Assembly: GCA_963681505.1 (NCBI GenBank)
Contig: OY811979.1
Location: 2,325,414-2,389,413 of the forward strand
Reading direction: 5' to 3'
Length of the DNA: 64,000 bases
From: Eunapius fragilis
Lineage: Eukaryota; Porifera; Demospongiae; Spongillida; Spongillidae
Below the pieces are notes generated by a model. The model was given only the letters and a program-made list of their open reading frames with translations. It did no database searches and had not been told where the DNA came from. A program made the position numbers and the translations under genes. Positions 38,986-62,540 of the stretch are shown piece by piece; the first letter of the stretch is position 1, and each line of letters starts with the position of its first letter.

Positions 38986-39529
38986 GAACCAATAAAGTGA
39001 CCATTAACTGATTACCAGCCAAACTGATTATTAAGAATAACCGCTTCCAGCCGAATTAATTTCGTTCGGTTTTCAAATTTGACGCTTGTCAGTTAACTAT
39101 GCGCAGCGGTTCAACGGAACGAGATTTGTATGGGCAAGTTGAGTTTTTCTTGTTCAGTGTTTCATTTTCTATCGTATTTTTGTTAGATCGCTGTAATATT
39201 TTCGGATTTTGTATTGTGCTACCCGTAGGTAGTGTTACGATAGCGCAGTATGAGGCGATGTGATGTCACTAACGTAGTTAGGTGTTTGAGCGGCGTATCC
39301 TTGTAAGACATCCTTTTAGCTTCAGAAATATATATATAGGTACCGCTGCAATGTGTTCCGTACTATAAAACTCATCGTTAGTTCATACATGTATTTTATT
39401 CTAATTAGTGCTCGACTGGTACTTTATATTGTTGAGCCTTGTTTCACTCGCTGCACCGATTGGATGCCGTTATTAAGATCTGTTTGGACCACTGGATTGT
39501 TGCAACTTCCTAGCTCTCTCAATTCTTGC

Positions 39530-41940
39530 CTGTCTGACTGTCTCCTCCCCAGGTCACTGAGTAGTACTGGCCAGTGCCTTGACTGTCTCCTTCCAAGGTC
39601 CCTGTATGTACTCCCACATCTCCGGGCCAGTGCTCTGACTGTCTCCTCCCCAGGTCCCTGTGAGTACTCCCACATCTCCGGGCCAGTGCCCTGACTGTCT
39701 CCTCCCCAGGTCCCCGTGAGTACTCCCACATCTCCGGGCCAGTGCCCTGACTGTCTCCTCCCCTGCTTCCTGTGAGTACTGCCACATCTCCGGGCCAGTG
39801 CCCTGACTGTCTCCTCCCCAGGTCCCTGTGAGTACCCCACATCTCCGGGCCAGTGCCCTGACTGTCTCCTCCCCAGGTCCCAGTGAGTACTGCCACATCT
39901 CCGGGCCAGTGCCCTGACTGTCTCCTCCCCTGCTCCCTGTGAGTACTGCCACATCTCCGGGCCAGTGCCCTGACTGTCTCCTCCCCAGGTCCCAGTGAGT
40001 ACTGCCACATCTCCGGGCCAGTGCCCTGACTGTCTCCTCCCCTGCTCCCTGTGAGTACTGCCACATCTCCGGGCCAGTGCCCTGACTGTCTCCTCCCCTG
40101 CTTCCTGTGAGTACTGCCACATCTCCGGGCCAGTGCCCTGACTGTCTCCTCCCCAGGTCCCTGTGAGTACCCCACATCTCCGGGCCAGTGCCCTGACTGT
40201 CTCCTCCCCAGGTCCCAGTGAGTACTGCCACATCTCCGGGCCAGTGCCCTGACTGTCTCCTCCCCTGCTCCCTGTGAGTACTGCCACATCTCCGGGCCAG
40301 TGCCCTGACTGTCTCCTCATCAGGTCCCTGTGAGTACCCCACATCTCCGGGCCAGTGCCCTGACTGTCTCCTCCCCAGGTCCCTGTGAGTACTGCCACAT
40401 CTCCGGGCCAGTGCTCTGACTGTCTCCTCCCCAGGTCCCTGATAGTACTCCCACATCTCCGGGCCAGTGCCCTGACTGTCTCCTCCCCAGGTCCCCGTGA
40501 GTACTCCCACATCTCCGGGCCAGTGCCCTGACTGTCTCCTCCCCTGCTCCCAGTGAGTACTGCCACATCTCCGGGCCAGTGCCCTGACTGTCTCCTCCCC
40601 AGGTCCCTGTGAGTACCCCACATCTCCGGGCCAGTGCCCTGACTGTCTCCTCCCCAGGTCCCAGTGAGTACTGCCACATCTCCGGGCGAGTGTCCTGACT
40701 GTCTCCTCCCCAGGTCCCTGTGAGTACTGCCACATCTCCTGGCCAGTGCCCTGACCGTCTCCTCCCCAGGTCCCAGTGAGTACTGCCACATCTCCGGGCC
40801 AGTGCCCTGACTGTCTCCTCCCCTGCTCCCTGTGAGTACTGCCACATCTCCGGGCCAGTGCCCTGACTGTCTCCTCATCAGGTCCCTGTGAGTACCCCAC
40901 ATCTCCGGGCCAGTGCCCTGACTGTCTCCTCCCCAGGTCCCTGTGAGTACTGCCACATCTCCGGGCCAGTGCTCTGACTGTCTCCTCCCCAGGTCCCTGT
41001 GAGTACTCCCACATCTCCGGGCCAGTGCCCTGACTGTCTCCTCCCCAGGTCCCCGTGAGTACTCCCACATCTCCGGGCCAGTGCCCTGACTGTCTCCTCC
41101 CCTGCTCCCTGTGAGTACTGCCACATCTCCGGGCGAGTGTCCTGACTGTCTCCTCCCCAGGTCCCTGTGAGTACTGCCACATCTCCTGGCCAGTGCCCTG
41201 ACTGTCTCCTCCGCAGGTCGCAGTGAGTACTGCCACATCTCCTGGCAAGTGCCCTGACTGTTCTCCTCCCCTGAGTACTGCCACATCTCCTGGCCAGAGC
41301 CCTGACTGTCTCCTCCCCAGGTCCCTGTCAGTGCTGCCACATCTCCGGGCCAGTACCCTGACTGTTCTCCTCCCCAGGTCCCAGTGAGTACTGCCACATC
41401 TCCTGGCCAGTGTCCTGACTGTCTCCTCCCCAGGTCCCTGTCCATACTGCCACATCTCCTGGCCAGTGCCCTGACTGTCTCCTCCCCAGGTCCCAGTGAG
41501 TACTGCCACATCTCCTGGCCAGTGCCCTGACTGTCTCCTCCCCAGGTCCCTGTGAGTACTCCCACATCTCCGGGCCAGTGCCCTGACCGTCTCCTCCCCA
41601 CATCTCCTGGCCAGTACCCTGACTGTCTCCTCCCCAGGTCCCTGTCCATACTGCCACATCTCCTGGCCAGTGCCCTGACTGTCTTCTCCCCAGGTCCCTG
41701 TGAGTACTCCCACATCTCCGGGCCAGTGCCCTGACCGTCTCCTCCCCACATCTCCTGGCCAGTACCCTGACTGTCTCCTCCCCAGGTCCCTGTCCATACT
41801 GCCACATCTCCTGGCCAGTGCCCTGACTGTCTCCTCCCCAGGTCCCAGTGAGTACTGCCACATCTCCGGGCCAGTGCCCTGACTGTCTCCTCCCCAGGTC
41901 CCAGTGAGTATTCCCACATCTCCGGGCCAGTGCCCTTGTT
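39530..41940 (+). repeat. 56-bp minisatellite with splice-like signals
   Basis: About 43 units. On the plus strand each unit reads CTGAC, TGTCTCCTCCCCAG, GTCCCT, GTGAGTAC, CACATCTCCGGGCCAGTGCC. That is a branch-point-like CTGAC, a pyrimidine tract with CAG, six bases, and a consensus donor GTGAGT. Because 56 is not a multiple of three, an array-long open frame on the minus strand cycles through all frames; it is not a gene. Confidence 0.95.
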
Positions 41941-41964
41941 ACTTTTAAATCTCTTGTTCCACCA

Positions 41965-42057
41965 TCAGGTCTTCAAAGTCCTACCGTATGTCGTTGGTTC
42001 AGCATTATCATCTATCATTTCCAGCACCTGATCCAGCATATAGTGCTCATCAGCCAT
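41965..42057 (-). CDS. Short acidic frame at the end of element D
   Basis: Thirty residues, MADEHYMLDQVLEMIDDNAE and ten more. It sits between the palindrome-bearing TTAA end and the minisatellite, the same place where elements A and C have MAKR-type frames. piggyBac transposases begin with an acidic, poorly conserved segment, so this may be a remnant first exon, with a possible donor TACG|GTAGGA inside its end. Too short to prove. Confidence 0.4.
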   Translation of the reverse strand: MADEHYMLDQVLEMIDDNAEPTTYGRTLKT

Positions 42058-43017
42058 CCTACATATACATGTTTTCGTGTTATGTAATCTAATACCGCAT
42101 CTATACCACACACATCAGGCTTCCCTACTACCTGTTCGAACAAGGCAACCAACCCCAAGCTTACGAGAAAAATAGTTCCACCACGGCTAACGATGAAAAG
42201 CGCAATAAAGATAGAACACCTGCCGGTTGCTAAGCAATCCTTTTATCCCCACCATCTCCGTTTTCGACTCGCGCAACCGTATAATCTAACCCGCTAACCT
42301 CCCTCAATCTATGCATAAAATAGAAGGGTAACCCATCAAAAGTTCCAATTAACAAAAAAAACCGTCGATACAAAAGGCGATTGTATTGTTGAATAAACGT
42401 TTCGTGGCAGCGTCTCGTTGCGCCAAATGGCGCTTACGGTCAATTCAATACGTCACGTTATGCGCCAATTGGCGCTTACGGCTGGTAACCAGTTAATCTA
42501 TCTAATATCACATAACGTATCTAACGAGGAATTCCCTTACAATTATCACCTTGAACGAGGAATTCTTAATAAGTGAGGGGAAAATACAATCCCTAATGAG
42601 AGGAATGAGGGAAGAAGAGGGAAGGAGGTTAAGAGGGAATCCCTCTTCCCCAGACCTGCAACCCATCCACAGTGAGAGTCCACTGTCAAGGCAGCAGGAC
42701 AAATCTCTGTTATTCTCAGTGGTTTCAGTTTCTTGGTTCATACACAGCATGAGGTTTGAAGTCTGGTTTACAAGCATCTCAGAGCTCTTTCGCATACATG
42801 TCAAGTCGCATAGTTATCTACAGTAGAAGGGGGCAGGGGCGGGTAGAAAGTCTAACCTAAAGACACCACTTGCACCTAATGTCACTCACAGGAAAGCTCC
42901 ACTTGTCTCTAACCTGTCTACCTGACACCTACATTTTAATGATAGTCAATTGACTCCACGTTTAAAATGTCACGATACAAGCAAGATAATTTTGACAATG
43001 ACAAATTGGTGAATGCA

Positions 43018-43651
43018 TTAACTCTTTGAGCGTCACTATTGCAATATGGGTGACGTCGTTAATTGCCAGCGATGTTTTTAATTATGGCTACCCGTAGCTT
43101 ATTAGTCGCCGTTCTCGAAGAATAACACGGTTAGCTTACTTAGATATATTACTATGATATAAAAGTGTTTTATTATGTGTATTTTGATATTTTGGTGTAC
43201 TAACTTAAAAAACAATGGTTGCTAACAACACTCGATAATAGGCGGAGCCTAGTGGGCCGAGACTTGAAGCTTTCGTATCGTGTAAACTATAAAACAGAAG
43301 ACGAAAACACGTTATATATATTCCCTGGTGTTATTTCTAAGGTCCAGGTGTTTAAAAAGGCTTCGCTCTCCCCTATTTTAGTTGAACAAGCGGGTGCGTA
43401 TTCAAAGCTGCTAGTAACGATAGAGGCGCTATTACAAGTACACCTGCAGCTGTTAGTTCCCGCTTTCTATTTAGTTAAAAACCAACACTCCAGTCATAGC
43501 TCCATGTCCTTAGGGCATTTTGGTGCACAAAGTGCGTAACCGTGCGACACTAGGTGGTTTTCAAATACGTGTGCACATAAATGTGCACTTGGCGGTGAAC
43601 GCGGGGTGCAATAATTGCACACAAATGTGCACTTGGCGGTTAAAGAGTTAA
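43018..43651. mobile_element. TTAA-flanked MITE, copy 2
   Basis: Same family as 35925-36559, with TTAA at 43018-43021 and 43648-43651 and ends AACTCTTTGAGCGTCAC / GGCGGTTAAAGAGTT. Differences from copy 1 are scattered substitutions and small indels. It lies between unrelated exon scraps. Confidence 0.93.
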
Positions 43652-43831
43652 AGTCTAGATCAATAAGGACTACTTTGTAAGAGCCAGAAGCACAACGAAA
43701 ACATATGTCGAATTCAAGTGCATGAACAGCTTGACTGTCATTTCCGAAGAGCATCAAATGTCCAATGGAATTGTAAAAAGTAAAATCGATGGTACTATGG
43801 CATGGCTTTCTAACAGAGCAAGACGCAGTTA

Positions 43832-44076
43832 TTGCATTTTCTATTAGACAGGCTCAAAGGGCAAAATTGTTGCAACGCACATATTGCTAACATTCAACAG
43901 AAGCGTCATGTAGAAAAAAACCAAAAGAAAGATGCAAGTTTTAGAAGGAAACTCGAGAAAAAATTCAAGCTCATTTTTGAAGGAGAGACTGATTTGTATA
44001 GTGAGTTTCCGGATCTAACTGGAGATCAAGCAAATACAATATCAAAAGCTCTTTCAAGTCAATGCACCATAATGAC
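43832..44076 (+). CDS. Possible exon, charged, unknown
   Basis: Reads QKRHVEKNQKKDASFRRKLE and then KKFKLIFEGETDLYSEF...DQANTISKALSS. Basic then acidic composition of normal protein character. It is followed by a stretch that looks intronic and by the exon at 44118. No domain recognised. Confidence 0.3.
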
Positions 44077-44117
44077 CTATACTTTGCACACATGTGGGTT
44101 TCTCCTCTTCCCCAGGT

Positions 44118-44219
44118 TTCAATTATAGCAACCTTGCTACACGTCCTTCCTCTCCAGACCTGGAGCCTTCCCCCACACAGATGAGTGGGATAAATGAGAG
44201 GCAGCAGGAATCTAATGGT
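44118..44219 (+). CDS. Possible exon (SSPDLEPSPTQ type)
   Basis: Acceptor TCTCCTCTTCCCCAG at 44117 and donor GGT|GTGCGT-like at 44219 bound a frame FNYSNLATRPSSPDLEPSPT...ESNG. A similar NPSSPDLQPIHSESPLSRQQ peptide occurs at 42630-42690, which suggests paralogous exons on both sides of the MITE. Function unknown. Confidence 0.35.
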
Positions 44220-44489
44220 GCGTATGTGTGCATGAGTGTGTGCATGTCAGTACCCCTGAAAGCACAGCATCACATGCTACAACAAATCGCCGTCGTTAGG
44301 TAAAGTTATTGTATTGCATGTTTATAATTTATTCTTCACATGCAGTGTATGTATGGGTTTATGCTGCTAACAAGTTGTATGAGCAGCGTTGCAGTGATGT
44401 ACAAGTGGCTTAGGGATTCTGTTTATGCTGAATGTTTTACACCAAACAAGGTGTGAAGGCCGGCTTGCTTAATTGAAGTCGGCGCTGGA

Positions 44490-44759
44490 ATGCTTGGGTT
44501 CCAAGTGGGCCATTCCTTGTTAGCAGAACTGGCGATGCGGAATGACTGGACGCCTGAGGGGACAAACAGTGCTTGTGAAAGACGACACTACCATTGCAGG
44601 CATAAGCTGAAGGTAAGTTATGAAGACCACCAGTTGGCACCGTACATCCTCAAGGAACAGTTGCACACACGTTTATGGCCAAAGAAAGGACAGCCGACCC
44701 GACCAGAAGCACGACGGGAAACAGTTCGGGACAAACCTGTACCTGTCTATCTGAACTAA
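44490..44759 (+). CDS. Unidentified 89-residue open frame
   Basis: Starts MLGFQVGHSLLAELAMRNDW and ends RDKPVPVYLN. The composition is protein-like (mixed charged, His/Tyr/Trp present), but no motif is recognised and no splice sites were tied to it. Possibly a fragment of a transposon-derived protein. Confidence 0.25.
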   Translation: MLGFQVGHSLLAELAMRNDWTPEGTNSACERRHYHCRHKLKVSYEDHQLAPYILKEQLHTRLWPKKGQPTRPEARRETVRDKPVPVYLN

Positions 44760-45689
44760 ACCCTGAGAATGTTGTCTTGGACCTAAGATGGTCTGCCAGT
44801 CAGTCTAACAATGTTCCAGCATAAGTCAAAGAGTTAAGGATGTGGCTTATTTACGTGTACGACAGCATTTATCTGCTGAGCAGAAAAGACACAGTTGTAT
44901 GACACAAAGATTGCAGGTAACACTTTTGTAAAAGGATGACAAGCTTGTTGATAATGTTTCAATCAACTACACACTTTCAAAACAGGTGTTCTGGTAAGGT
45001 GATTAAGTCAGGACGATGAACTGCTTTCTGAGAAGTCCCTCCTGCCTTTGAAGGAGGAGACATTGGTTGGATTTACTACGTTTATCCAATTTATAAATTC
45101 TGTTTTCTATTTCGAAATCATGTCTAATCCTAGAAATGGCTCCACATTCCAAAAAGACAGAGTCCCCCAAGAAAGAGAGCAAAAAAAATGGATTGGAAAA
45201 AAAGTTTTATCTTCAGCATCAAGTGGTGGTAGTGGGGGATATTAAAGTTGTCTCATTTGATCCCTGGCACTCAAAAGAGACATTACCCCCTGTGTATGTT
45301 ATGATTGTGCATTTCAGCTGTACATTGCATACCACGTGAGGGTGTGAGAAAGACCTGCTTCGATGTTGTTACAATTACAGCGCAGTTTCTCCATTGTTCT
45401 TCCTTCAGTACCTACAAGGGGAACAGTGTCTATGCCCATCATGACCATGGTCACCCTTCTCTATAACCACATTGGCCGATCACCGGACATGACATACAGC
45501 CATCTAAGTCAACAGAATACCAGTGGTCTGAACCTTATTACAGCCCTCCGACCAGACAAGTTGGAGGAATTTGGCATAGACTCCGTTCCGCTTCTTGGGT
45601 GGTGAGAGAATTATAACTGTGTGATGGGGGTGAAACAAAGTAATGGTCCGCCAAAAGGCAGGTACTGGACGCCAGCTCTTTTTCTTGGA

Positions 45690-45780
45690 GGCTAGGGCCA
45701 TGCACCTTCTCAGGTGGTACAGGTATCACTTTCACCTGCAATGGTACTCACCATCTCCTATGTCTAGGGACGGTGGTGTC
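45690..45780 (+). pseudogene. Ig-like exon scrap
   Basis: One plus frame reads PCTFSGGTGITFTCNGTHHL, an Ig-like B-strand pattern with Cys, comparable to GTGHIFNCNTIDQPLC at about 28365-28420. Nearby, TTTCAGCTGTACATTGCATACC at 45312 (here given as its first 22-base type only in part: TTTCAGCTGTACATTGC) resembles 28518-28540. These are remnants of the same receptor-like family. Confidence 0.35.
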
Positions 45781-46364
45781 AAATTATCTGGTATTTAATT
45801 TAATGTTATGCTAACAAGATGCACGTGGAGTCAAAACTGACCGCAATTACTCATGTCTGAGATACTAACACTCATTCTTTGTGTGGATAGCAGGGTTCTC
45901 AGTCCTGTCTTGTCCAGTGATGCCAAGGCAGTATGTCCAGGCTTACAGTTTACTTCCACCTGTTAGGTCACGGAAAACGACTCCCTGATATGATGGAGGT
46001 TCGTAGCAGGTGTCACAGAATTGTTTATCCCCCCTATAATTTCATCCCCCTGGAATAGTCTATTTATCCTCCTGGGCTAAAGTATTCTGGGATAGATTAT
46101 CCTACCTTGAAGTATTGCCCCCCCCCCCCCCCCCCAATCCGAACATATATTAACATAACCATGTGAACAGTTATTGTATACCCCACACAAGGCACAGCAG
46201 CTGTCAGATGGATGGCGAAGAACACAGCGATTGGTTCGTTTCCTTTGAGAGCAAAGACGATAAGCACTGAACTTGGCCTCGGAGGGAAGAAGAATCTAAA
46301 GGTAAGGACATATCGCAAGAAATACTGGAGCGTTGTCATCTATGCGAGCTGAGGATCAAAGCAT

Positions 46365-46470
46365 ATACCGAGTGATTAAAATGGATGAAAAGATGCACCT
46401 GCTTGAGAGCATCCACAAAGATCCAGCAGGGTGTCACTATGGTGTTCATAAATGCAATGCATGCACTGCT
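46365..46470 (+). pseudogene. Retroelement integrase zinc-binding scrap (fossil)
   Basis: Reads YRVIKMDEKMHLLESIHKDP and AGCHYGVHKC, close to the H-x-H...C-type zinc-binding segment that precedes gypsy integrases (IH.DP.GGH.GV.KT). No other part of the element is seen. An isolated old fragment. Confidence 0.5.
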
Positions 46471-46747
46471 GCTAGCCCTTTTGATATGACCAATTGCATA
46501 TATTAAGTGCCTGTATATCTAATGTTTACTCTGGGTAGCTTTCTCAATATGATGCTGAAGTTAACTGGTAAATGTACAGTACATTACTACATGTATAGCC
46601 TTCAGCTGAGACATATTATGTGTCACTTATTACCGTGTGGTGAGGCAGGTTGTCAGATTCAATTAGAATGGTTATAAATTTTTTAGGAAATAAACTGGAA
46701 TAGCCATTTTGCAACTAGGAGATTATTTTTGAATGTACTTAGGTCCA

Positions 46748-47125
46748 AGATCTGATAATGGTACTACCAGAAGACACGTGGAACGATGGCTTGGATGATG
46801 AGCTGCTGGAAGGAGGACAAACGCCACGACGAATGATCAGAGCACAGAAACACCAGGAACAGAGGAAAAAATTTAGGATGAAAGGTGAAGGAGATCTGGA
46901 CTTTGGGGCAGTAGCCCCAGCACTAGGACAAGAACGATAGCAAAAGCTGTACAACCCAACCACTACCAGCACACACAAACTTGCGCAATAGTGAGATCCT
47001 CCTAAGGTCATTGATGCAACCTTGAGCAGGATGCACAAAGACCTGGCCATACTTTCGACCAAATTAGAAAGAGCCAAGAACCACATCGATCTTCTCAAAG
47101 CTACAATCAACAAGGTCCAATGGGG
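46748..47125 (+). pseudogene. Unknown reading frame with three stops, cut at TTAA
   Basis: A single frame runs from LPEDTWNDGLDDELLEGGQT through GEGDLDFGAVAPALGQER and YNPTTTSTHKLAQ to VIDATLSRMHKDLAILSTKL and HIDLLKATINKVQ, ending at the TTAA of element A. It contains stop codons at about 46938 and two adjacent ones at about 46990. Its last third is a heptad coiled coil. The protein family is not recognised. Element A appears to have inserted into it at TTAA (47126). Confidence 0.45.
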
Positions 47126-47287
47126 TTAACCGATTAATTGCGAAAGACGCCAATTGGCGTCCGTTAATTGATTCTCGAAATGCGGAAGACGCCAATTGGC
47201 GTCCACTTGGAGACAGACGGTTTAGGCGGTTATAACTAAAAGATGCATCGTCATTTGCACACATCCTGTAACTTTTAGCGTTCTAGA

Positions 47288-47416
47288 ATGGCCAAGCGGG
47301 CGCGAAGGCTACAGACGGACAATAACCTTACAATGCTCGTGAATGCAGACATCGTGTGTAGTGTCAGTAGTGATGACAAGCCTATAGTTGGCAGCGACCG
47401 CCAATTTAGTGACTGA
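47288..47416 (+). CDS. MAKR-type N-terminal exon of element A
   Basis: Forty-two residues starting MAKRARRLQTDNNLTMLVNA and ending GSDRQFSD. It is a paralogue of the element C exon (MAKRSRRINRED ... GSDGEFSDHEQENMDG): the MAKR start and SD..FSD acidic block match. After the stop the DNA still resembles exon C (ATGGAAG|GTATCT against ATGGATG|GTAAGC). Acidic SD-rich starts are typical of piggyBac transposases. The rest of the transposase is absent. Confidence 0.55.
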   Translation: MAKRARRLQTDNNLTMLVNADIVCSVSSDDKPIVGSDRQFSD

Positions 47417-47764
47417 TAGATGGAAGGTATCTCCCTAATTATAGTACAATGGATTCATGAAGGTGGGCGTCTTTCATTACTTCGTATTGGTTCTAAGATG
47501 ACTTCTTCCTTGACAAACTAATGACATGCATGCCCAGACAGCTGACGCCATCTTTTACTGATACGTTCTAAAGAGAAGATGGCTGTGTGTCCTTTCATCT
47601 GTACAGACAGATCCATCCAACAATCAACACATACACATAATGCCAATGCATTACAGACAGGTGACAGTGTAGTGGAACAGCCTGACTTGCCTCCACGTTG
47701 TGCACAGCTGTACAGGGACAGAGATTATGAGTCACAATATGTCACAGCAAACATAAAATAATGC

Positions 47765-48417
47765 TGGTGCTACATACACATCCGCCTTGAAACCCCAATA
47801 GTTACGCACACACCCACCTTGTACCTCTTAACATACACCCCTAGCAATGTACACATCCACCTCGACATTCCAGTGTACACCCATGGCTATGTGCATATCC
47901 CCCTCGACATCCCCAGCGCACACCTGTCGGTATTCACACAGCCCCCTCAACACCCCCAGCGCACACACATAGGTATGTACATCCCCCTCAACACCCCAGC
48001 GCACACACATAGGTATTCACACATCCCCCTCAACACACCCAGCGCACACATAGGTATGCACACATCCCCCTCAACACCCCCAGCGCACACCCATAGGTAC
48101 GCACACATCCCCCTCAACACCCCAGCACACATCCATTGGTATGCACAAACACTCCTCAACACCCCCAGCGCACATATAGGTATGCATACATCCCTCTCAA
48201 CATCCCCAGCGCACAGCCATAGGTATGCACACATCCCCCTCAACAAACCCAGCGCACTCACATAGGTATTCACACATCCCCCTCAACACCCCCAGCGCAC
48301 ACACATAGGTATTCACACATCCCCTCAACACCCCCAGCGCACACCCATAGGTATGCACACATCCCCTCAACACCCCCAGCACACCCATTGTATGCACACA
48401 TCCCCTTCATTGTACTG
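47765..48417 (+). repeat. 43-bp satellite, left part of element A array
   Basis: Units of type ATAGGTATGCACACATCCCC + CTCAACACCCCCAGCGCACACCC, about 14 copies, degenerate at the left edge. This is the same satellite as at 51245-56320 but in the opposite orientation. Each unit contains AG|GTATG and CCCCCAG on the plus strand. Confidence 0.92.
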
Positions 48418-48707
48418 TATCAGTCAATAAAAAGGTAACGCTAGGTAGTACTCTACCTTCGTAACGTAATAACTACGTAGAAAATTGCGTTACGTTGCGG
48501 AGTAATGTTTTGCGTATTTGCGGTAGTACCTTACGGTGCGCAAGTAGAACATACTGTTCAAACAACTAAACATATGTTTCACACTTGTTTATTTCTTTCC
48601 CTGGCCTTAAAGTACCCGCGTTTGTACGACACAATGAACCAATCATTTTTAAGCGCGCCAATCGTTCACTGAGGTTCGCCTGTTCCTTCCCGAATGCGCG
48701 GTTCTTT

Positions 48708-48724
48708 CGACTATAAATAATAAA
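48708..48724 (+). promoter_or_regulatory. TATA-like box upstream of 48777 frame
   Basis: CGACTATAAATAATAAAC lies about 65 bases before the ATG at 48777. The distance suits a TATA box with a short 5' UTR. The upstream 150 bases are free of repeats. Suggestive only. Confidence 0.4.
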
Positions 48725-48776
48725 CTGGAGTGCTACCGCGTTAACGATCGCGCCCTACTCCACTACGTCTAATACG

Positions 48777-49001
48777 ATGTCTTTGCGAACGGCACTCAAG
48801 GAGACAGGTTGGTTTTTTTTTTCATCAGTATTGTTCGAGATCATCCCGCATTCCTTAGAGCTCTACCATCTTTTGCGCTGGCAAAATGAGGACTCGGTGT
48901 CAGTTGTCCCCGATAGTGCCGTAACAATGCTGAGCGAGGGAGGCGTGGGTTGTTCAATGAAGTGGGGAACGAAGCTATACTATGGCGATGTTGTGGCTTC
49001 A
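48777..49001 (+). CDS. First exon of a gene with a Tudor-like small domain
   Basis: The frame MSLRTALKETGWFFFSSVLF... then reads LLRWQNEDSVSVVPDSAV and GVGCSMKWGTKLYYGDVVAS. A W-x-x-(E/D)-x-x-x-S-V-V-P block followed by a G..C.VKWG....YEA.V block is known from N-termini of BEN-domain-type and related invertebrate proteins (recollection). The exon ends at a donor-like TCAG|GTACATG, and a possible following exon starts near 49056. Lys/Ala/Gly-rich peptide (KKLAVKAKTGKARANTG) at 49304 may be a further exon. No later domain is present, so the gene is incomplete here. Confidence 0.5.
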
Positions 49002-50939
49002 GGTACATGTAAAAAAAAAAAACATTATTACCACAAATTACTCAATGATTATAATTAGGAACAAAGTGCGCTATGGAACTGGAAGAAGCGCGGTATCTAA
49101 GGCATGTTGCAGTGACTACCGCCCCAGAACGTTAGTGCTACTCTACAATCTTCAGTTGGTAATGTAGCGCGTTTCCCGTACCCATCAGGAAATGAATTGT
49201 CAGAAGCCACAAATAAAGATGCAGCCTCTACACCTAAACGTTAGTTTGTCATTGATGATTAAATTTATTGCTGATTAGTACCTGTGGCACTTTAAAACTA
49301 TCAGGGAAAAAGTTGGCAGTAAAGGCAAAGACTGGAAAGGCCAGGGCAAATACAGGAAGAGCAAAGGCTGGAAAGGCCAAGTCAAAGCCCATAGGTAGAT
49401 ATTGGTTAAAGAACTGCATGTTAAGCAAAGCATTATTTCAGGGAGGATTCTGGACTATGGAAGTGGAGCAGATGATGATGTCACATCTGATCCTGAAAGT
49501 ATGTCTTGGTTCTGTTAATAGTGGAATTAATTTTTCAGTGGCTGATCTAACACCAGCCACACCCCCTCCACCATCGAGTTGCTGAATATGATTTAACACT
49601 CACTCCAACTACCTGATTAAATATCTTTTTGGCCCTACGTGAATGACTGAAAAGGTTGAGCCACTTACCCCAAAACCTTGTGAGTGTTTCACACTTAAAC
49701 TTATCGCCTACAAGGTCAAGGGTGTGGGAAAAGCATTTTATGTCTTCTGAGCATTGGAAATCCCCTGATAGTCGATCCATTGCAACGTCATTTACTGATG
49801 CTCTGTCACGCATAAACGCTGCGATGTTGTCTTCATCCTCAATACCAAGCTTAACCATTATGATCTTATAAATCTCCCGTGCTGTTGTCACTCCAATAAG
49901 TTGGTCATCGATCATTGACATAGCCACCAACATTTGATGAATGTTGCTCTCTTCATCAATGTAGCGTGCAACTACTGCAAAGGCCTCACAAACTCTGGTT
50001 GTTCCATCAAATATGATGGAAATGCTCCTTCCTTAAAGAGCTTTCTTCACTCTTTCCAGTTCTTGGGCCTGTATGATTGGGATCAGCTGCCTTAGGTGGG
50101 ATGCATCAGGAACCCTCTGAGCATACTTTTCCAGAAATGGAGCGAACACATTAAGGGAATTCAAACTGAGGCCACACTTCATCCACCATGAAACAAGCTC
50201 AATCCGCCAAATCCTTGCCTCTTCACTAGTCCTGCTTCCAAATCCTTTAGGAGGTTGCAGTGCACCACCTGAAGCTCCAGTTACCTCCCCAGCATCTAAC
50301 TTATCCAAGAAGTTAGTGACAGATTTCCCTTGCTGAAGACTTTGCATGTACTTCTCCTTCCTTGTCTGATGTTTTGTAGACTGTATGTGTTGTACAACCC
50401 TGTCCTTCTTGAGGTTAACTTGTTCACGACAACACATACAGAATACATAGGAGGTGAAGCCCTGAAAAGGCTCTTTAGGAAATTCATTTTTCCTAGTGAA
50501 CCCAGTGATACCTTTTAACCGATTATACGCTAAATTATTCGTAACGTAACGTAACCACTAACCGCGGAATTAATTTTTATGGATAATGTCTAATTCGATA
50601 TCGTTTGACTCACGCGCGATAACTTTTTAACGAAACGACTTTTCTATTGGCTACTTTTAGAAATCGGGCTGATGGGTAGACTAGCTATTCGCTAGTGCCT
50701 TCTGATTGGAGATCCGATGTAGGAAACATACAAAGAGCAGGTATCATAATATTCGACAGAGACGGACTGGCTTACAAGGACGTTTTGACGCGAGCAGGAT
50801 GGAACAGTTGTCACACTAATGAAAAGTAAGTATATCAGAGGCATACTAAGTATGTGAGAACCTTTTTGTTCTCTCGACAATATCGGTAAAGGGTGCGTTG
50901 TCATAGACATCTGAGCATAGAAAATTGATAATTCTATTT

Positions 50940-51240
50940 AGTGCCGTCGAAGATGCTACCGCCACAACAGCTTGCTCTGTACTCTTGTAGTGTACGGTTT
51001 TACTTTGTCTTGCGTATATGTGCTTTGATGCCAATAGGGTTGCGGCGTATGGAAGTTGTCAAGCGCATCGACGAAGCTAATGAGACGCAAGCTGTGACCG
51101 GCAGGTGGAGACTTGTAATTCAAATTATCAATGGTAAGCAAGTAGTTTTTAGGCTAGTACTTTGGGGTGGTAAGTACACCAAAACACCATTACGTGCCGT
51201 TGAAGGGTAATTCTATACGTTAGAGTGTCTAGTTCATTGC
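50940..51240 (-). repeat. Conserved ~300-bp end segment of element C
   Basis: Reverse complement of 59820-60110 in element A with about 80-85% apparent identity. Both can be read as ...YKxPPAxHSxRLISFxDALD (LNYKSPPAGHSLRLISF here). It is unclear whether this is coding or a conserved terminal region. It lies directly beyond the satellite in both elements. Confidence 0.75.
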
Positions 51241-51244
51241 TATG

Positions 51245-54200
51245 GATAGGGGTGAGATGTATGTGTGCATTACTATGGGTGTGCACTAGAGTTTTGAGGG
51301 GGATGTGTGCATACCTATGGGTGTGTGCTGGGGTGTTGAGGGGATGTGTACACTGGGGGTGTTGAGGGATATGTGTGTGCTGGGGTGTTGAGGGGGATGT
51401 GTGTGCTGGGGTGTTGAGGGGGATTTGTGGACTTGCATGTTGATGGGGATGTGTGTGCTGGGGTGTTGAGGGGATGTGTGTGCTGGGTGTTGAAGGGGAT
51501 GTGTGTGCTGGGTGTTGAAGGGGATGTGTGTGCTGGGTGTTGAAGGGGATGTGTGTGCTGGGTGTTGAAGGGAATGTGTGCGCTGGGTGTTGAAGGGGAT
51601 GTGTGCGCTGGGTGTTGAGGGGGATGTGTGCGCTGGGTGTTGAGGGGGATGTGTGTCTGCTGGGTGTTGAGGGGGATGTGTGTGCTGGGGATGTTGAGGG
51701 GGATGTGTGTGCTGGGTGTTGAGGGGATGTGTGTGCTGGGTGTTGAGGGGATGTGTGTGCTGGGTGTTGAGGGGGATGTGTGTGCTGGGTGTTGAGATGG
51801 GTGAGTGTGCGCTGGGGGTGTTGAGGGGATGTGTGCGCTGGGGTGTTGAGGGAGATGTGTGCGCTGGGGGTGTTGAGATGAATGTGTACATACCTACGGG
51901 TGTGCGCTGGGGGTGTTGAGGGGGATGTGTGCATACCTATGGGTGTGCACTGGGGGTGTTGAGGGGATGTGTACATACCTATGGGTGTGCACTGGGGGTG
52001 TTGTGGGGGATGTGTACATAGCTATGTGTGTGCACTGGGGGTGTTGAGGGGGATGTGTACATACCTACGGGTGTGCACTGGGGGTGTTGAGGGGGATGTG
52101 TACTTACCTATGGGTGTGCACTGGGGGTGTTGAGGGGGATGTGTACATACCTACGGGTGTGCACTGGGGGTGTTGAGGGGGATGTGTACATACCTATGGG
52201 TGTGCACTGGGGGTGTTGAGGGGATGTGTACATACCTATGGGTGTGCACTGGGGGTGTTGAGGGGGATGTGTACATACCTATGGGTGTGCACTGGGGGTG
52301 TTGTGGGGGATGTGTACATAGCTATGTGTGTGCGCTGGGGGTGTTGAGGGGGGGGTGTACATACCTATGGGTGTGCACTGGGGGTGTTGAGGGGGATGTG
52401 TACATACCTACGGGTGTGCACTGGGGGTGCTGAGGGGGATGTGTGCATACCTATGGGTGTGCACTGGGGGTGTTGAGGGGATGTGTACATACCTATGGGT
52501 GTGCACTGCGGGGTGTTGAGGGGGATGTGTACATACCTACGGGTGTGCACTGGGGGTGTTGAGGGGGATGTTTGCATACCAATGGGTGTGCACTTGGGGT
52601 GTTGAGGGGGATGTGTGCATAGCTATGTGTGTGCGCTGGGGGTGTTGAGGGGGATGTGTGAATACCTACGGGTGTGCGCTGGGGGTGTTGAGGGGGATGT
52701 GTACATAGCTATGTGTGTGCACTGGGGGTGTTGAGGGGGATGTGTGCATACCTATGGGTGTGCACTAGGGGTGTTGAGAGGGTTGTGTACATACCTGTGG
52801 GTGTGCACTGGGGGTGTTGAGGGGGATGTGTGCATAGCTATGTGTGTGCACTGGGGGTGTTGAGGGGGATGTGTACATACCTACGGGTGTGCGCTGGGGG
52901 TGTTGAGGGGGATGTGTGCATACCTATGGGTGTGCGCTGGGGGTGTTGAGGGGATGTGTACATACCTATGGGTGTGCACTGGGGGTGTTGTGGGGGATGT
53001 GTACATAGCTATGTGTGTGCACTGGGGGTGTTGAGGGGGATGTGTACATACCTACGGGTGTGCACTGGGGGTGTTGAGGGGGATGTGTACATACCTATGG
53101 GTGTGCACTGGGGGTGTTGAGGGGGATGTGTACATACCTACGGGTGTGCACTGGGGGTGTTGAGGGGGATGTGTGCATACCTATGGGTGTGCACTGGGGG
53201 TGTTGAGGGGATGTGTACATACCTATGGGTGTGCACTGGGGGTGTTGAGGGGGATGTGTACATACCTACGGGTGTGCACTGGGGGTGTTGAGGGTGATGT
53301 TTGCATACCTATGGGTGTGCACTGGGGGTGTTGAGGGGGATGTGTACATACCTATGGGTGTGCACTGGGGGTGTTGAGGGGATGTGTACATACCTATGGG
53401 TGTGCACTGGGGGTGTTGAGGGGGATGTGTACATACCTATGGGTGTGCACTGGGGGTGTTGAGGGGATGTGTACATACCTATGGGTGTGCACTGGGGGGT
53501 GTTGAGGGGGATGTGTACATACCTACGGGTGTGCACTGGGGGTGTTGAGGGGGATGTTTGCATATCTATGGGTGTGCACTTGGGGTGTTGAGGGGGATGT
53601 GTGCATAGCTATGTGTGTGCGCTGGGGTGTTGAGGGGGATGTGTGAATACCTATGGGTGTGCACTTGGGGTGTTGAGGGGGATGTGTGCATAGCTATGTG
53701 TGTGCGCTGGGGTGTTGAGGGGGATGTGTGAATACCTACGGGTGTGCGCTGGGGGTGTTGAGGGGGATGTGTACATAGCTATGTGTGTGCACTGGGGGTG
53801 TTGAGGGGGGTGTGTGCATACCTATGGGTGTGCACTAGGGGTGTTGAGAGGGATGTGTACATACCTGTGGGTGTGCACTGGGGGTGTTGAGGGGGATGTG
53901 TGCATAGCTATGTGTGTGCGCTGGGGGTGTTGAGGGGGATGTGTGCATACCTACGGGTGTGCACTGGGGGTGTTGAGGCGGATGTGTGCATACCTATGGG
54001 TGTGCACTGGGGGTGTTGAGGTGGATGTGTGCATAGCTATGTGTGTGCGCTGGGGGTGTTGAGGGGGATGTGTATATACCTACGGGTGTGCACTGGGGGG
54101 TGTTGAGGGGGATGTGTGCATAGCTATGTGTGTGCGCTGGGGGTGTTGAGGGGGATGTGTACATACCTACGGGTGTGCACTGGGGGTGTTGAGGGGGATG

Positions 54201-56320
54201 TGTGCATAGCTATGTGTGTGCACTGGGGGTGTTGAGGGAGATGTGTACATATCTATGGGTGTGCGCTGGGGGGTGTTGAGGGGGATGTGTGCATAGCTAT
54301 GTGTGTGCGCTGGGGGTGTTGAGGGGGATGTGTACATACCTACGGGTGTGCACCGGGGGTGTTGAGGCGGATGTTTGCATACCTATGGGTGTGCACTGGG
54401 GGTGTTGAGGGGGATGTGAGCATACCTATGGGTGTGCACTGGGGTGTTGAGGGGGATGTGTACATAGCTATGTGTGTGCACTGGGGGTGTTGAGGGGGAT
54501 GTGTGCATAGCTATGTGTGTGCACTGGGGGTGTTGAGGGGGATGCGTGCATAGCTATGTGTGTGCGCTGGGGGGTGTTGAAGGGGGTGTGTGAATACCTA
54601 TGGGTGTGCGCTGGGGGTGTTGAGGGGGATGTGTACATACCTACGGGTGTGCACTGGGGGTGTTGAGGGGGATGTGTACATACCTATGGGTGTGCACTGG
54701 GGGTGTTGAGGGGGATGTGTACATACCTACGGGTGTGCACTGGGGGTGTTGAGGGGGATGTGTGCATACCTATGGGTGTGCACTGGGGGTGTTGAGGGGA
54801 TGTGTACATACCTATGGGTGTGCACTGGGGGTGTTGAGGGGGATGTGTACATACCTACGGGTGTGCACTGGGGGTGTTGAGGGTGATGTTTGCATACCTA
54901 TGGGTGTGCACTGGGGGTGTTGAGGGGGATGTGTACATACCTATGGGTGTGCACTGGGGGTGTTGAGGGGATGTGTACATACCTATGGGTGTGCACTGGG
55001 GGTGTTGAGGGGGATGTGTACATACCTATGGGTGTGCACAGGGGGTGTTGAGGGGATTTGTACATACCTATGGGTGTGCACTGGGGGGTGTTGAGGGGGA
55101 TGTGTACATACCTACGGGTGTGCACTGGGGGTGTTGAGGGGGATGTTTGCATATCTATGGGTGTGCACTTGGGGTGTTGAGGGGGATGTGTGCATAGCTA
55201 TGTGTGTGCGCTGGGGTGTTGAGGGGGATGTGTGAATACCTACGGGTGTGCGCTGGGGGTGTTGAGGGGGATGTGTACATAGCTATGTGTGTGCACTGGG
55301 GGTGTTGAGGGGGGTGTGTGCATACCTATGGGTGTGCACTAGGGGTGTTGAGAGGGTTGTGTACATACCTGTGGGTGTGCACTGGGGGTGTTGAGGGGGA
55401 TGTGTGCATAGCTATGTGTGTGCGCTGGGGGTGTTGAGGGGGATGTGTGCATACCTACGGGTGTGCACTGGGGGTGTTGAGGCGGATGTGTGCATACCTA
55501 TGGGTGTGCACTGGGGGTGTTGAGGGGGATGTGTGCATAGCTATGTGTGTGCGCTGGGGGTGTTGAGGGTGATGTGTATATACCTACGGGTGTGCACTGG
55601 GGGGTGTTGAGGGGGATGTGTGCATAGCTATGTGTGTGCGCTGGGGGTGTTGAGGGGGATGTGTACATACCTACGGGTGTGCACTGGGGGTGTTGAGGGG
55701 GATGTGTGCATAGCTATGTGTGTGCGCTGGGGGTGTTGAGGGAGATGTGTACATATCTATGGGTGTGCGCTGGGGGGTGTTGAGGGGGATGTGTGCATAG
55801 CTATGTGTGTGCGCTGGGGGTGTTGAGGGGGATGTGTACATACCTACGGGTGTGCACCGGGGGTGTTGAGGCGGATGTTTGCATACCTATGGGTGTGCAC
55901 TGGGGGTGTTGAGGGGGATGTGAGCATACCTATGGGTGTGCACTGGGGTGTTGAGGGGGATGTGTACATAGCTATGTGTGTGCACTGGGGGTGTTGAGGG
56001 GGATGTGTGCATAGCTATGTGTGTGCACTGGGGGTGTTGAGGGGGATGCGTGCATAGCTATGTGTGTGCGCTGGGGGGTGTTGAAGGGGGTGTGTGAATA
56101 CCTATGGGTGTGCGCTGGGGGTGTTGAGGGGGATGTGTACATACCTATGTGCGTGCGCTGGGGGTGTTGAGAGGGATGTGTACATACCTATGTGCGTGCG
56201 CTGGGGGTGTTGAGGGGGATGTGTACATACCTATGGATGTGCACTGGGGGTGTTGAGGGGGTTGTGTACATACCTACGGGTGTGCGCTAGGGGTGTTGAG
56301 GGGGATGTATACCTACTTAT
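51245..56320 (-). repeat. 43-bp satellite, ~118 units, with higher-order duplication
   Basis: Plus-strand unit: GGGTGTGCACTGGGGGTGTT+GAGGGGGATGTGTACATACCTAT. Two main variants alternate (CATACCTATGGGTGTGCAC and CATAGCTATGTGTGTGCGC). Rare variants recur at a fixed offset of 1589 bp (AGGGTGATGTTTGCATACC at 53291 and 54880; CATATCTATGGGTG at 53561 and 55150), so roughly 37 units were duplicated as a block. The later part differs by a two-unit deletion. On the minus strand each unit carries AG|GTATGT and CCCCCAG. Confidence 0.95.
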
Positions 56321-56538
56321 TTCTTCCCTACCACAGGTAGCAATTTGAAGTGGCAACAACTCATCATCTGAATGAATGTTATGTCACACCTATGTTGAAC
56401 CCATGCCATATACTAGCTCCTACCGCTGCTATCAATGTCACTGTCTGGTCTATGCTTCTTTTTGCGTTCAACAATGCACACTGCACCTACATGTATGGTA
56501 TGCTATACGTGTATGTATTGCATATGCTAATAGCTTAC

Positions 56539-56695
56539 CATCCATATTTTCCTGTTCATGGTCGCTGAATTCACCATCACTCCCTGACATATCAGGCTCG
56601 TCAGGGTCACTACAATAGCTCTCCAGGGCATCGTCATCCTTGTCAAAAAGCTCTATAACGTCTTCGCGGTTTATCCTGCGCGAGCGCTTTGCCAT
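56539..56695 (-). CDS. MAKR-type N-terminal exon of element C
   Basis: Starts MAKRSRRINREDVIELFDKD, continues with acidic DDDALESYCSDPDEPDMSG and GSDGEFSDHEQENMDG, and ends at a strong donor ATGGATG|GTAAGC. The acidic SD/DE-rich N-terminus is what piggyBac transposases show before their DDE domain. It is paralogous to 47288-47416. The intended downstream exons are missing; the satellite occupies the intron position in sense orientation. If transcribed, splicing could use satellite-borne sites. Confidence 0.65.
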
Positions 56696-57430
56696 TCTCT
56701 TTATATGTTATCAATTGAATTTTATCGGTGCATGCAATCGATTGTTTACCTTGTACGCTGATTTAGTAGAAACCTACAATAGCAAGCCTACTAGTTCGAT
56801 AATAAACTGAATAGTACAGGAACGGGTGTACACAACTGTGTAAGTTTCAGAACCAAACGTCTCACCGATTGTGGATGGCGCTTCATGTACTGTAGTGTAT
56901 ACAGCTAGACGCAAATTTGCGTCTACCGCGCTTTACATGAAATAATTGTTAGACGCAAATTTGCGTCTACCGCGTATAATCGGTTAAGGTAGATTGCTTG
57001 GCTTTGGTTGAAGATCGTGGGCGTGATTTGGCAGCTATGATTTTTCGTTCTCTTTCAAGGCAAGACCGCTTTGGTGCTTGCACATCACTGTAGGCGCTGG
57101 CCAATTTCTCCTCTCCGTTTAGTTTTACACCTTCCTTTGACGATGAACTCGTGCAAGGCTCACTTGACTCCAATTGTATAGCAATCAACAGGTTAACAGT
57201 ACCAGCTGTCAGCTGGTAACCGGTTGTTCGACTGGAATTACATCATTGTTATCAGTGATAATCAGTCTAAATCATCTATACCTCATGCATAAACGCCTTC
57301 TACTAAATTCATGTTTTGTGCAAAACCAATAATTACATAATGCACGCAATTAATACCGCATTCGGATCATTCGGTTATGGACCCTACATTCGGCTGCCGT
57401 GCCGCGGCATCCGATAGTGCCTAAGCCTAT

Positions 57431-57604
57431 CTATGGGTGTGGTCAGTCAGTGAGAAGTGGTGGGGTTAATGCACTAAGCCACAAACAGGGTCCATGGGTG
57501 TGGTCACAGAGTGAGAAGTGGTGGGGTTAATGCACTAAGCCGCAAACAGGGTCCATGGGTGTGGTCACAGAGTGAGAAGTGGTGGGGTTAATGCACTAAG
57601 CCAA
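57431..57604 (+). repeat. 61-bp tandem repeat, three units
   Basis: Three units containing ATGGGTGTGGTCACAGAGTG and AGAAGTGGTGGGGTTAATGC. The reverse complement family (TTAACCCCACAACTTCTCAC, TGACCACACCCATTGG) reappears at 61690-61900. It lies between the hAT piece and the Tc1 transposase. Confidence 0.9.
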
Positions 57605-57771
57605 GTAGTGAGGTGTGAGTGGATTAGGTGAAATGAACAGCTGCTTAGAGGTTTACTTGTTCACATGAAAACAATTTCCTGCCATATGGACCCCTCCCTC
57701 TTTACTTATGGGCTTGTATATGAAGGTAACAAGAAATAATAAAATTGCTTTACAAACTGAACTTCAAGCAC

Positions 57772-58941
57772 TCAATAACCAGTAGCATCACCCTTCAGTT
57801 CTATAGCTTTAGGGATTACTTTTTTTAAGTGTCCTATGTATTTAGCACACACAGATGGTGTCACTGTCTTCCAAAAGGCCTTGATCCCTCTAATAAGTTC
57901 TTCCTTGTTTTTAGGCTTCACCTCTCTCCGCATATACTCGTTCAATTCATGCCATAGGTTTTCAATAGGATTGAGGTCAGGTGATTCAGCAGGGGTCCTC
58001 CACCAGTTCACTTGCTTCTCCTTCAAAAACTGCTGTGCTAACTTCGATGTGTGCTTTGGATCGTTATCAGCCATGAAACGATGCGAGGTTGGAAAATTGC
58101 GTGCTAGGAACGGCAGCAAGGTCGTCTCCAAGATGTTAACATAGAGCGGAGAATCCATAATCCCGTCAAATATGCACAGTTTAGCTGTTCCTTTCAAGCT
58201 GATTGCCCCCCAAACGTGTACTTTGACAGGATGTTTTGGTCTGTAGCAATACGTGGTTAAAATTGTATTAACCATTTACGTTCAGTAACTCATTACCTCG
58301 GCTTCGGTTTAGGCGGTTGCCCAATCTTTCGACAGCATGTCCTTCGGTGACTTTCTAACTGAATAGAAGACTCATCTGTCCATATTACGTCGGAGAAGTT
58401 GTCCTGCTGATGTTCCTGGCACCATTCAAAGCGTTTGACCTTGTTGCCTTCCCTATCGAACCGCAAGCGGTATAAGACATGTTCGATATGAACCTGTAGC
58501 TAAAGTTGTACCTGATGATTTGGCAATAAGCGCTGCCCCTGAACACCCATCCGAGGCTTCTCCGCGCACGCAAAATGGTGCGAAGCGAAAGTTTATGACC
58601 TATGAAAACTTGGACTATTATAACTCAATCGATGATTAATCCAAATAATACGCACCTTTCTGTGCCAGAAGCGCGCGAAGCTGAACAGCGGTCGTTTCAT
58701 CGTCAAGCTGCATTTGTGCCTCCACGATCCTCTTCACCTCGTCAGTAATCTTTGAAGGTCTACCAGATCCACGGCGGCGCGCCAAAGTTCCACATTTTTC
58801 AAACCTTTTTAGGAATCGATAAATACCTACATGGCTAACGATCAACCCTTCCCCCAACAAAAGATTCCTAATGGTTCTACTCTTACGCCCCTGTTGATGA
58901 TAGAATAAATTCCTTTGCTTCACGTAGTCCGTAAACACCAT
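57772..58941 (-). pseudogene. Tc1-like transposase with two 56-bp introns
   Basis: Cut-and-paste DDE transposase. Exon 1 (58941-58656) begins MVFTDYVKQRNLFYHQQG and holds the paired helix-turn-helix and a GRPSKITDE linker. Intron 1 is 58655-58600 (GTGCGT...CATAG). Exon 2 (58599-58297) has LRARRSLGWVFRGSAYCQII and VIWTDESSIQLES (first Asp). Intron 2 is 58296-58241 (GTAATG...CTACAG). Exon 3 (58240-57772) has VKVHVWGAIS, MADNDPKHTS (second Asp) and SPDLNPIENLW (Glu), a DD34E spacing, and ends GDATGY. Both splices restore the family sequence in frame. A one-base shift remains in exon 2 near 58490-58510, so this copy is inactive. Confidence 0.82.
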
Positions 58942-59189
58942 CGCTACGATCCAAACAGTGGCAGTGTTGTCTGACGCAATGCGTGTGGCGGATATGTACC
59001 CGTGCTTTAGCAGCTGCCCAACCTGACAACTTGTTCTCAATATGTTTTCGTGTTACGTGTTGCCATAAGGTAACGCATTTTTCTACTGATCTACCGCAAC
59101 TTTCTACCTACGTAATTTATTACCTAAATAAGGTATTGCGTTGCAAAGGTAGAGTAGTACGTAGCGTTAACTTTTTATTGACCGATACT

Positions 59190-59815
59190 GTATGCACACA
59201 TCCCCTTCAACACCCCCAGCACACCCATTGGTATGCACACATCCCCCTCAACACCCCCAGCGCACACACATAGGTATGCACACACATCCCTCAACACCCC
59301 CAGCACACACACATTGGTATGCACACATCCCCCTCAACACCCCCAGCACACACACATAGGTATGCACACATCCCCCTCAACACCCCCAGCGCACACACAT
59401 AGGTATTCACACATCCCCCTCAACACCCCCAGCGCACACCCATAGGTATGCACACATCCCCCTCAACACCCCCAGCACACCCATTGTATGCACACATCCC
59501 CCTCAACACCCCCAGCGCACACACATAGGTATGCACCCATCCCCCTCAACACCCCAGCACACACCCATTGGTATGCACACATTCCCCTCAACACCCCCAG
59601 CGCACACCCATAGGTATGCACACATCCCCCTCAACACCCCCAGCACACACCCATTGGTATGCACTCATCCCCCTCCAGCACACACCCATTGGTATGCACA
59701 CATCCCCCTCAACACCCCCAGCGCACACCCATTGGTACAAATGCACACATACATCTCAACACCCCCTGCGCACACCCAATGGTATGCACACATATATCTC
59801 AACACCGCTATCCAT
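59190..59815 (+). repeat. 43-bp satellite, right part of element A array
   Basis: Continuation of 47765-48417 on the other side of element B, about 14 units of CACATCCCCCTCAACACCCC type. The last units vary (CATATATCTCAACACC) before the conserved flank starts at about 59820. Confidence 0.92.
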
Positions 59816-59819
59816 AGCA

Positions 59820-60110
59820 ATGTACTCGACACTCCTACGTATAGAAATACCCTTCAACCATACGAAATGGTGTTCTGGTGTACTTACAACCCCAAAGTAC
59901 TTGCTTACAAACTACTTGCTTACCACTTATTCTTTGAATTACAAGGCTCCACCTGCCAGTCACAGCATGCGTCTCATTAGCTTCATCGATGCGCTTGACA
60001 TCTTCCATATGTCGCACCCCTATTGGCATCGAAGCACATACAGTATGGGACACGAAAAAGGTTACGTTTCGTATTGTTAGCACACCATATGTACGATTGT
60101 ATAGTTCCGT
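59820..60110 (+). repeat. Conserved ~300-bp end segment of element A
   Basis: Inverted counterpart of 50940-51240, containing AAATGGTGTTCTGGTGTACT and LNYKAPPASHSMRLISFIDA-type reading. Homology to element C stops near 60110. Confidence 0.75.
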
Positions 60111-60731
60111 ACTATGCTGGTACACACGGAGTTAACACGATCGAGCGCAGGTACGCTATCAATTATCGTGTATGAATCCGTTTACATCTGTACTATCGTG
60201 CGCATCGTATCTACGCTTACGTAGCTTCTGGAATCAAGCGCAAGAGGAAAAAAACCATCACAACGTTGGTTTCCGTTCGATTTGGAGACACTTACTTTCT
60301 TTTTCTGAAGACTTCAGAACGCATTGCGGCAGCTAAAGCGACTCACGATGAACGCGGCGCACAAACGCAACGGTAGCGTGCAGCCAGGTAGTGCAAACGA
60401 TGGAATGCGTGTACGCAATTAACACCCATCAACACACCTTACAGACGCAATTTGTACTTTGTATAACAGGCTGTAGTCAACACCGCGCAACGATCGTTTT
60501 ATGTAAACGGAACGTAACCTTTTTCGTGTCTCCTAATGTATACGCAACGGTGTTGCCGCGATCCGGAAACGATCTCGTGATCGTCGATGCATATCCGTAT
60601 CGCATCCGGTATCGTTAATCGGCGATGTTTAATACGTAGGTATCGGCGAGGCTCGACGATACTGCCTTTTATTCATAGCAACACTCACTAATTTTACTTA
60701 AAATGACAAAAATGTCTGAAGGGAGTGTGCA

Positions 60732-61163: not shown

Positions 61164-61309
61164 AAGACCTGGTAGATTCATCAGATATCGAACTGATTCT
61201 AATAATAATAACCCGTCCGTGCAGCTAAAGAAAAGTCTTGCACAGGAATTGTACATGTAGACATCTTGTTTAATATGCCAGCTGCAAACATCAACATCTG
61301 CACTCAACA

Positions 61310-62522: not shown

Positions 62523-62540
62523 TGTGGGTGGACGGTGCTG

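Follow-up and report, generated by a model that had tools for sequence, protein, structure and literature searches.

The DNA described here is a 64,000-nucleotide stretch of Eunapius fragilis (contig OY811979.1), which we call the window; all coordinates are positions within it, and it reads as animal-like eukaryote DNA. In this paper, we have tried to make sense of one set of elements in it—labelled A, C, D, and E1 to E3—that lie at TTAA sites and carry, behind one TTAA, a common arrangement of repeated palindromes, and some of which are filled for most of their length with tandem repeats. An earlier account made from the letters alone, the sequence-only reading, had presented A, C, and D as a piggyBac-like family with satellite arrays in place of a transposase core. 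To which superfamily would such elements belong, and are their arrays carried along with them?

TTAA elements with and without internal arrays

The elements other than A, with their parts and the evidence on which each was placed, are as follows.

50515-56987, minus strand: element C, complete, TTAA-bounded, with its palindrome end at 56987
51257-56320, minus strand: array of C, about 104 copies of a 43-bp unit plus an edge of short units at 51321-51877 (tandem-repeat listing)
56908-56967, minus strand: the two palindromes of C, identical to each other (56952-56967 and 56908-56923; palindrome and module scans)
56537-56695, minus strand: MAKR frame of C, 53 amino acids, net charge -12, acidic, related to the frame of A
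39004-42496, minus strand: element D, complete, TTAA-bounded (palindrome end at 42496, inverted ends, module scan)
39569-41936, strand not assigned: array of D, 56-bp units, about 42 copies (tandem-repeat listing)
42419-42476, minus strand: the two palindrome-like 16-mers of D (42461-42476 and 42419-42434; palindrome and module scans)
41968-42057, minus strand: frame of D, 30 amino acids, net charge -5, weakly acidic, without database match
35925-36559, minus strand: E1, a 635-bp TTAA element with a palindrome end and no array (scans, copy comparison)
43018-43651, minus strand: E2, a 634-bp copy of E with one substitution in its first palindrome (scans, copy comparison)
62541-63034, minus strand: E3, a copy of E that has kept its palindrome end and is without the other end (scans, copy comparison)

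Both C and D are bounded by TTAA on either side, and in each the inverted ends agree at 13 of 16 positions over the first 16 bp after TTAA. The kilobase arrays claimed for them are real and make up most of each element: 78% of the length of C, counting the 43-bp units together with the short-unit edge, and 68% of D. Arrays of 43-bp units were confirmed at 47835-48409, 51857-56320, and 59190-59793, the first and last of these belonging to A. A tandem array inside matched transposon ends, which characterizes the satellite-carrying miniature inverted-repeat transposable elements (MITEs) of the Xstir and miDNA4 kind, is thus found in both C and D. As an observation in its own right, the C array is strongly strand-asymmetric, with a GC skew of about 0.6 over 5 kb (51857-56320).

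Family E, a fourth family that the sequence-only reading overlooked at all three of the places listed above, was revealed by an unbiased scan of TTAA sites. Its three copies, none of which has an array, are 94-95% identical in pairwise comparison; E1 and E2 have TTAA at both ends, and after the TTAA their terminal inverted repeats agree at 12 and 11 of 16 positions, respectively.

A one-sided end with paired palindromes

On both strands together, the window holds 506 TTAA sites. Our strict test asked for a palindrome whose centre lies 27-29 bp in and which has no more than one mismatched pair in 14 bp; it counted a double where a second palindrome followed at 66-79. It returned a palindrome at eight sites, five of them double. 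The same test applied to 300 dinucleotide shuffles gave means of 2.1 single and 0.03 double palindromes and at most one double in any shuffle; with the other 255 four-letter anchors in place of TTAA, the mean number of doubles was 0.26, the counts for TAAC (an anchor that overlaps the TTAA sites already scored) and TTTC being 5 and 3. A relaxed test, which looked for a repeated 22-bp module behind TTAA, picked out six ends, those of A, C, D, E1, E2, and E3 (E2 passes this test and fails the strict one), and found none in each of 200 dinucleotide shuffles. Paired palindromes behind TTAA, as the earlier account had reported them, are therefore above chance by either test.

All six ends have one layout. 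Ten bp follow the TTAA, bp 11-16 form a hexamer, and bp 17-32 form a palindrome-like 16-mer; the 22-bp module then comes once more farther inward, its second copy being offset by 42 bp in A and D, 44 bp in C, E1, and E2, and 46 bp in E3. The hexamer of C, GCGGTA, stands at bp 11-16 and again at bp 55-60; the second 16-mer of D (42419-42434) has one mismatched pair; and the first bases after TTAA are CCG in A and C, CTG in D, and CTC in E. Neither the strict nor the relaxed scan showed a module or a palindrome pair at the opposite ends of C, D, E1, and E2. A plan shared by A, C, and D from one end had been described, and the TTAA with its palindrome pair is indeed common to the three; their orientation is not, the design being at the left end of A and at the right end of C and D, on the minus strand. 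Beside C, at 57190-57240, there is also a short palindromic stretch with TTAAC and GGTAACCGG that looks, by eye, slightly like the D end.

These ends can be set beside two published transposons. In piggyBac of Trichoplusia ni, the core domains hold the first 16 bp of the ends in a two-fold symmetric arrangement, and a dimer of the transposase's cysteine-rich domain (CRD) binds, on only one end, a palindromic repeat at bp 17-33 (Chen et al. 2020, PMC7351741). The ends described here resemble it in their TTAA, in their first 16 bp, and in having a palindrome beside these on the left end, at bp 17-32 in all six; they differ in that piggyBac has a palindrome on both ends, at another spacing, whereas here there are two on one end and none opposite. 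In piggyBat of Myotis lucifugus, the left end carries GCGGGA at bp 11-16, 55-60, and 99-104, with an imperfect palindrome 3 bp after each hexamer, and the right end has no such region (PMC11707139). Here the likeness extends to the position of the hexamer, to its recurrence 44 bp farther in (a spacing that C, E1, and E2 match exactly), to the palindrome after each hexamer, and to the lack of one on the right end; the difference is that piggyBat has three modules and its own transposase, whereas the present elements have two modules and no transposase that we found. Two further traits of piggyBac, a TTAA target duplicated at both ends and terminal inverted repeats of about 12-19 bp, are seen in C, D, E1, and E2 (11-13 of 16 positions agree), and A and E3 show one end each. 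The terminal repeat, the one-sided palindrome, and its repetition 42-46 bp inward fit the sites of piggyBac and piggyBat, and the earlier description of the ends as piggyBac-like is supported by this comparison.

Might the elements belong instead to Kolobok, or to some other superfamily that uses TTAA? Kolobok T2-MITEs do target TTAA, some with internal tandem repeats are known, and there is no transposase here to decide between the two. The tip of Kolobok elements, however, is a pair of purines (AG in 10 of 10 full-length frog elements tabulated in PMC6004289), and every end in our set starts with C; the palindromes, moreover, lie where piggyBac and piggyBat have theirs. We consider an origin in Kolobok or another TTAA superfamily very improbable and keep the piggyBac assignment.

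Nested insertions and the kinship of A, C, and D

Element A is broken up by other insertions, and its parts lie around C.

47126-47205, plus strand: palindrome end of A, TTAA with palindromes at 47146-47161 and 47188-47203 (palindrome and module scans)
47288-47413, plus strand: MAKR frame of A, 42 amino acids, net charge 0, related to the frame of C
47780-48412, plus strand: first part of the A array, 43-bp units, degenerate start included (tandem-repeat listing)
48413-59192, minus strand: Tc1/mariner-type element within the A array, enclosing C (62-bp inverted ends, flanking TA, DDE_3)
59193-59815, plus strand: second part of the A array, 43-bp units, beyond the Tc1/mariner element (tandem-repeat listing, comparison with C)
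59815-60042, strand not assigned: flank of the A array (matches C 51017-51247 at 199 of 226 aligned bases)
about 60043-60541, strand not assigned: a separate TA-flanked insertion in the A flank, with 35-bp inverted ends, containing the end formerly given to A

The A array is interrupted at 48413/59192 by the Tc1/mariner-type element, so that A is split and C enclosed by an insertion that the sequence-only reading did not see. Its transposase matches DDE_3 in Pfam with E 1.1e-17, and an HTH_32 match of 33.5 bits falls just under the cutoff of 33.7. With C removed, the element is about 4.3 kb long (48413-50514 plus 56988-59192); it has a second long minus-strand frame, 49547-57190, which is broken by C and by one stop, has no Pfam match above cutoff, and could be either an extra gene or another insertion. 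When the flanks of C are joined at TTAA, a single open frame runs across the junction and meets a stop later, and C is a clean TTAA insertion that interrupts a reading frame. The order of insertion was A, then Tc1/mariner, then C. Because C sits within an element that had already split the A array, A and C are separate insertions, and the nesting and the joined frame together mean that C is not a local copy of the surroundings of A. The right end of A had been placed at about 60110, a position that belongs to the separate insertion in its flank.

As claimed, A and C share a 43-bp array, to which the 56-bp array of D is unrelated (no BLAST match); within the window A (about 27 units) and C (about 104) are the only copies that share one. 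The distance from TTAA to the array is 654 bp and 667 bp in A and C, and the two agree at 60 of 80 aligned bases in the left end, 88 of 123 in the MAKR exon, and 88% in the array flank; none of 5000 shuffles equalled the alignment score of the two MAKR frames, which are thus related. Between MAKR and the array, 177 of 227 aligned bases (78%) are identical, which is within the range of 100 letter shuffles put through the same aligner (mean 76%, maximum 82%), and so this stretch is not above chance. A frame starting MPIG and then GGTAAGC are also common to the array flanks of C (50932-51207, plus strand) and A (59838-60041, minus strand); the frame runs against MAKR, on the other strand, and Pfam gave no match for it. 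Common ancestry had been proposed for all three elements, and for A and C it is borne out by the MAKR frame, the array, the flank, and the left end. For D it was not found beyond the end design: a BLAST comparison of D with A, C, and E1, with the arrays left in, gave no match at E 1e-3, so it is the end design that carries its kinship.

The array units tell something of their own history. Among 147 intervals between anchors, the 126 of 36-47 bases were kept (22 from A and 104 from C), and 15.6 of the 22 A monomers had their nearest neighbour in A, where 500 label shuffles gave a mean of 3.7 and a maximum of 9.3; the two arrays have therefore largely evolved apart. Were they ever carried, or did they grow at each site after insertion, or did the ends land beside arrays that already existed? 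Growth after insertion is possible, D has an array unrelated to the one that A and C share, and the right end of A is missing. Yet A and C came to different sites at different times and still share the 43-bp unit, the 88% identical flank, and a nearly equal distance from TTAA to array, and we judge it improbable that the arrays were not carried. A smaller array may have been transported and then have grown in place, as the grouping of A monomers with one another would allow.

The unevenness of the divergence between A and C (one pair only) hints at recombination near the array. A and C might then be a mosaic pair, with halves from different elements brought together by recombination or gene conversion close to the array they share: the flank (199 of 226) is more alike than the left end (60 of 80), the MAKR exon (88 of 123), or the chance-range stretch before the array (177 of 227). 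Unequal constraint would give the same pattern, though, and there is a single pair of which one member has lost its right end, and we regard the mosaic as rather unlikely. It would add to the explanation by carried arrays, not replace it.

Probable carriage of the arrays, known relatives, and the rest of the window

We put at roughly 0.8 the probability that these elements (A, C, D, and E) are non-autonomous members of the piggyBac superfamily, that their left end is piggyBat-like, and that the internal arrays of C, D, and probably A are carried along. A transposase encoded elsewhere would bind the terminal repeat of about 16 bp at both ends, its C-terminal zinc domain would bind the two palindromes, 42-46 bp apart, at the left end only, and it would, acting in trans, move the elements between TTAA sites. 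The transposase core would have been lost from an ancestor and its place taken by the array; this array would have arisen, in C and D and probably also in A, by slippage or unequal exchange that expanded a short piece of internal sequence, and it would then travel with the element.

The DDE transposase with a C-terminal CRD that defines piggyBac was not found in the frames examined, namely 56 frames of at least 38 amino acids from the single-copy parts of A, C, D, and E1 and from 760 bp beyond A. Such an absence is to be expected in a non-autonomous member, and so we file the elements as piggyBac-type by their ends. An acidic N-terminal frame had been attributed to each of A, C, and D; C has one, D has one weakly, and the frame of A carries no net charge. 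In the PDB, the D frame had no match and the C frame a single one with E 0.51, which we regard as chance; NCBIfam gave none for five frames.

Several points weigh against the explanation that we favour. Family E has the end design and no array, so the array is not something that the design needs. The palindromes differ from one another in sequence, they follow the hexamer directly rather than 3 bp past it as in piggyBat, and the ends, starting with CCG, CTG, or CTC, lack the CC[C/T]T terminal motif that, according to the coral MITE paper (PMC2872659), piggyBac ends generally carry. None of the 56 frames reached the cutoff in Pfam or was labelled piggyBac transposase, and the N-terminal frames brought nothing useful from Pfam or the PDB. 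Among the TTAA sites of 59801-64000, no right end of A was found, the best candidate matching at 11 positions of 16-17 and itself lying within the 60043-60541 insertion. Copies, finally, were counted within the 64-kb window only.

The sequence-only reading was, overall, sound as an observation, but it misplaced the right end of A and claimed too much novelty; it is partly confirmed, and strengthened by the quantified end design, family E, and the nested insertion order, and its interpretation as a whole is partly supported. It had announced a new route for satellite dispersal, and the route is not new, since Xenopus TTAA MITEs already carry amplified internal repeats. Xmix is a TTAA-target MITE with an internal segment amplified into tandem repeats (PMC6004289), and a 2025 review describes Xstir and miDNA4 as MITE-borne arrays that give rise to satellites (PMC12628747); the original reports, Hikosaka and Kawahara 2004 and Scalvenzi and Pollet 2014, are known to us through these two citing papers. 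Xmix, Xstir, and the T2-MITEs, all of Kolobok type, are like the present elements in being TTAA-target MITEs with internally amplified repeats and unlike them in having AG-type ends, whereas ours are of C type with paired palindromes. In miDNA4 the internal satellite is present as one monomer or a variable array, but it is a Xenopus Tc1/mariner MITE and not of TTAA/piggyBac type. The CMITEs of Acropora corals are piggyBac-linked TTAA MITEs of an early-branching animal in which tandem arrays occur; in the corals it is entire MITEs, about 100 bp long, that are repeated in tandem, whereas here the array is internal to the element.

Transposons that carry repeats are already known, so it is the piggyBac type of these elements that is of interest. 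Among the papers listed by the literature search, none showed a piggyBac element that has an array inside it, a weak negative because few subscription papers were covered; as far as that search goes, a piggyBac-type end design with two unrelated arrays is new. The array-carrying elements are tied to piggyBac by ends that can be read against solved transposase–DNA complexes, and one end design occurs on elements with no array, with a 43-bp array, and with a 56-bp array, which would let one compare directly when a transposon acquires a satellite and spreads it. One might even imagine—here we speculate, and would bet against it—that in this genome piggyBac-type elements repeatedly acquire unrelated satellite arrays and that the arrays serve as recombination points where backbones swap halves. 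If that were true, array and ends would evolve as separable modules, and satellites would spread on changing vehicles.

We rejected a reading of the array units as mini-introns, and what remains is kept as an observation only. A donor-like and an acceptor-like site occur in each unit, on the MAKR strand for the 43-bp one and on the plus strand for the 56-bp one; scored with splice-site matrices, both sites were as good in 2 of 2000 letter shuffles for the C unit, 1 of 2000 for the A unit, and 1 of 2000 for the D unit. Of 13 control arrays, chosen by score and period from 72 tandem-repeat rows, one did as well (24632, 0/600) and another came close (22991, 3 and 5/600 per strand); these controls, and a splice-like strand in D opposite to the inferred left-to-right gene direction, speak against introns. 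A 20-base core of the 43-bp unit had three single bacterial matches among genome contigs, which we regard as chance, and neither it nor the E module had any in viral contigs. Rfam, at gathering thresholds, gave nothing in the window.

Elsewhere in the window, Pfam matches among the frames include retrotransposon reverse transcriptase and RNase H domains, besides the Tc1/mariner DDE_3 transposase, and recombinase-like matches that mostly fall under the cutoffs. At 9823-14463 on the minus strand, neighbouring frames with weak phage-integrase matches in Pfam and, by eye, a reverse transcriptase look like a DIRS-like retroelement with a tyrosine recombinase.

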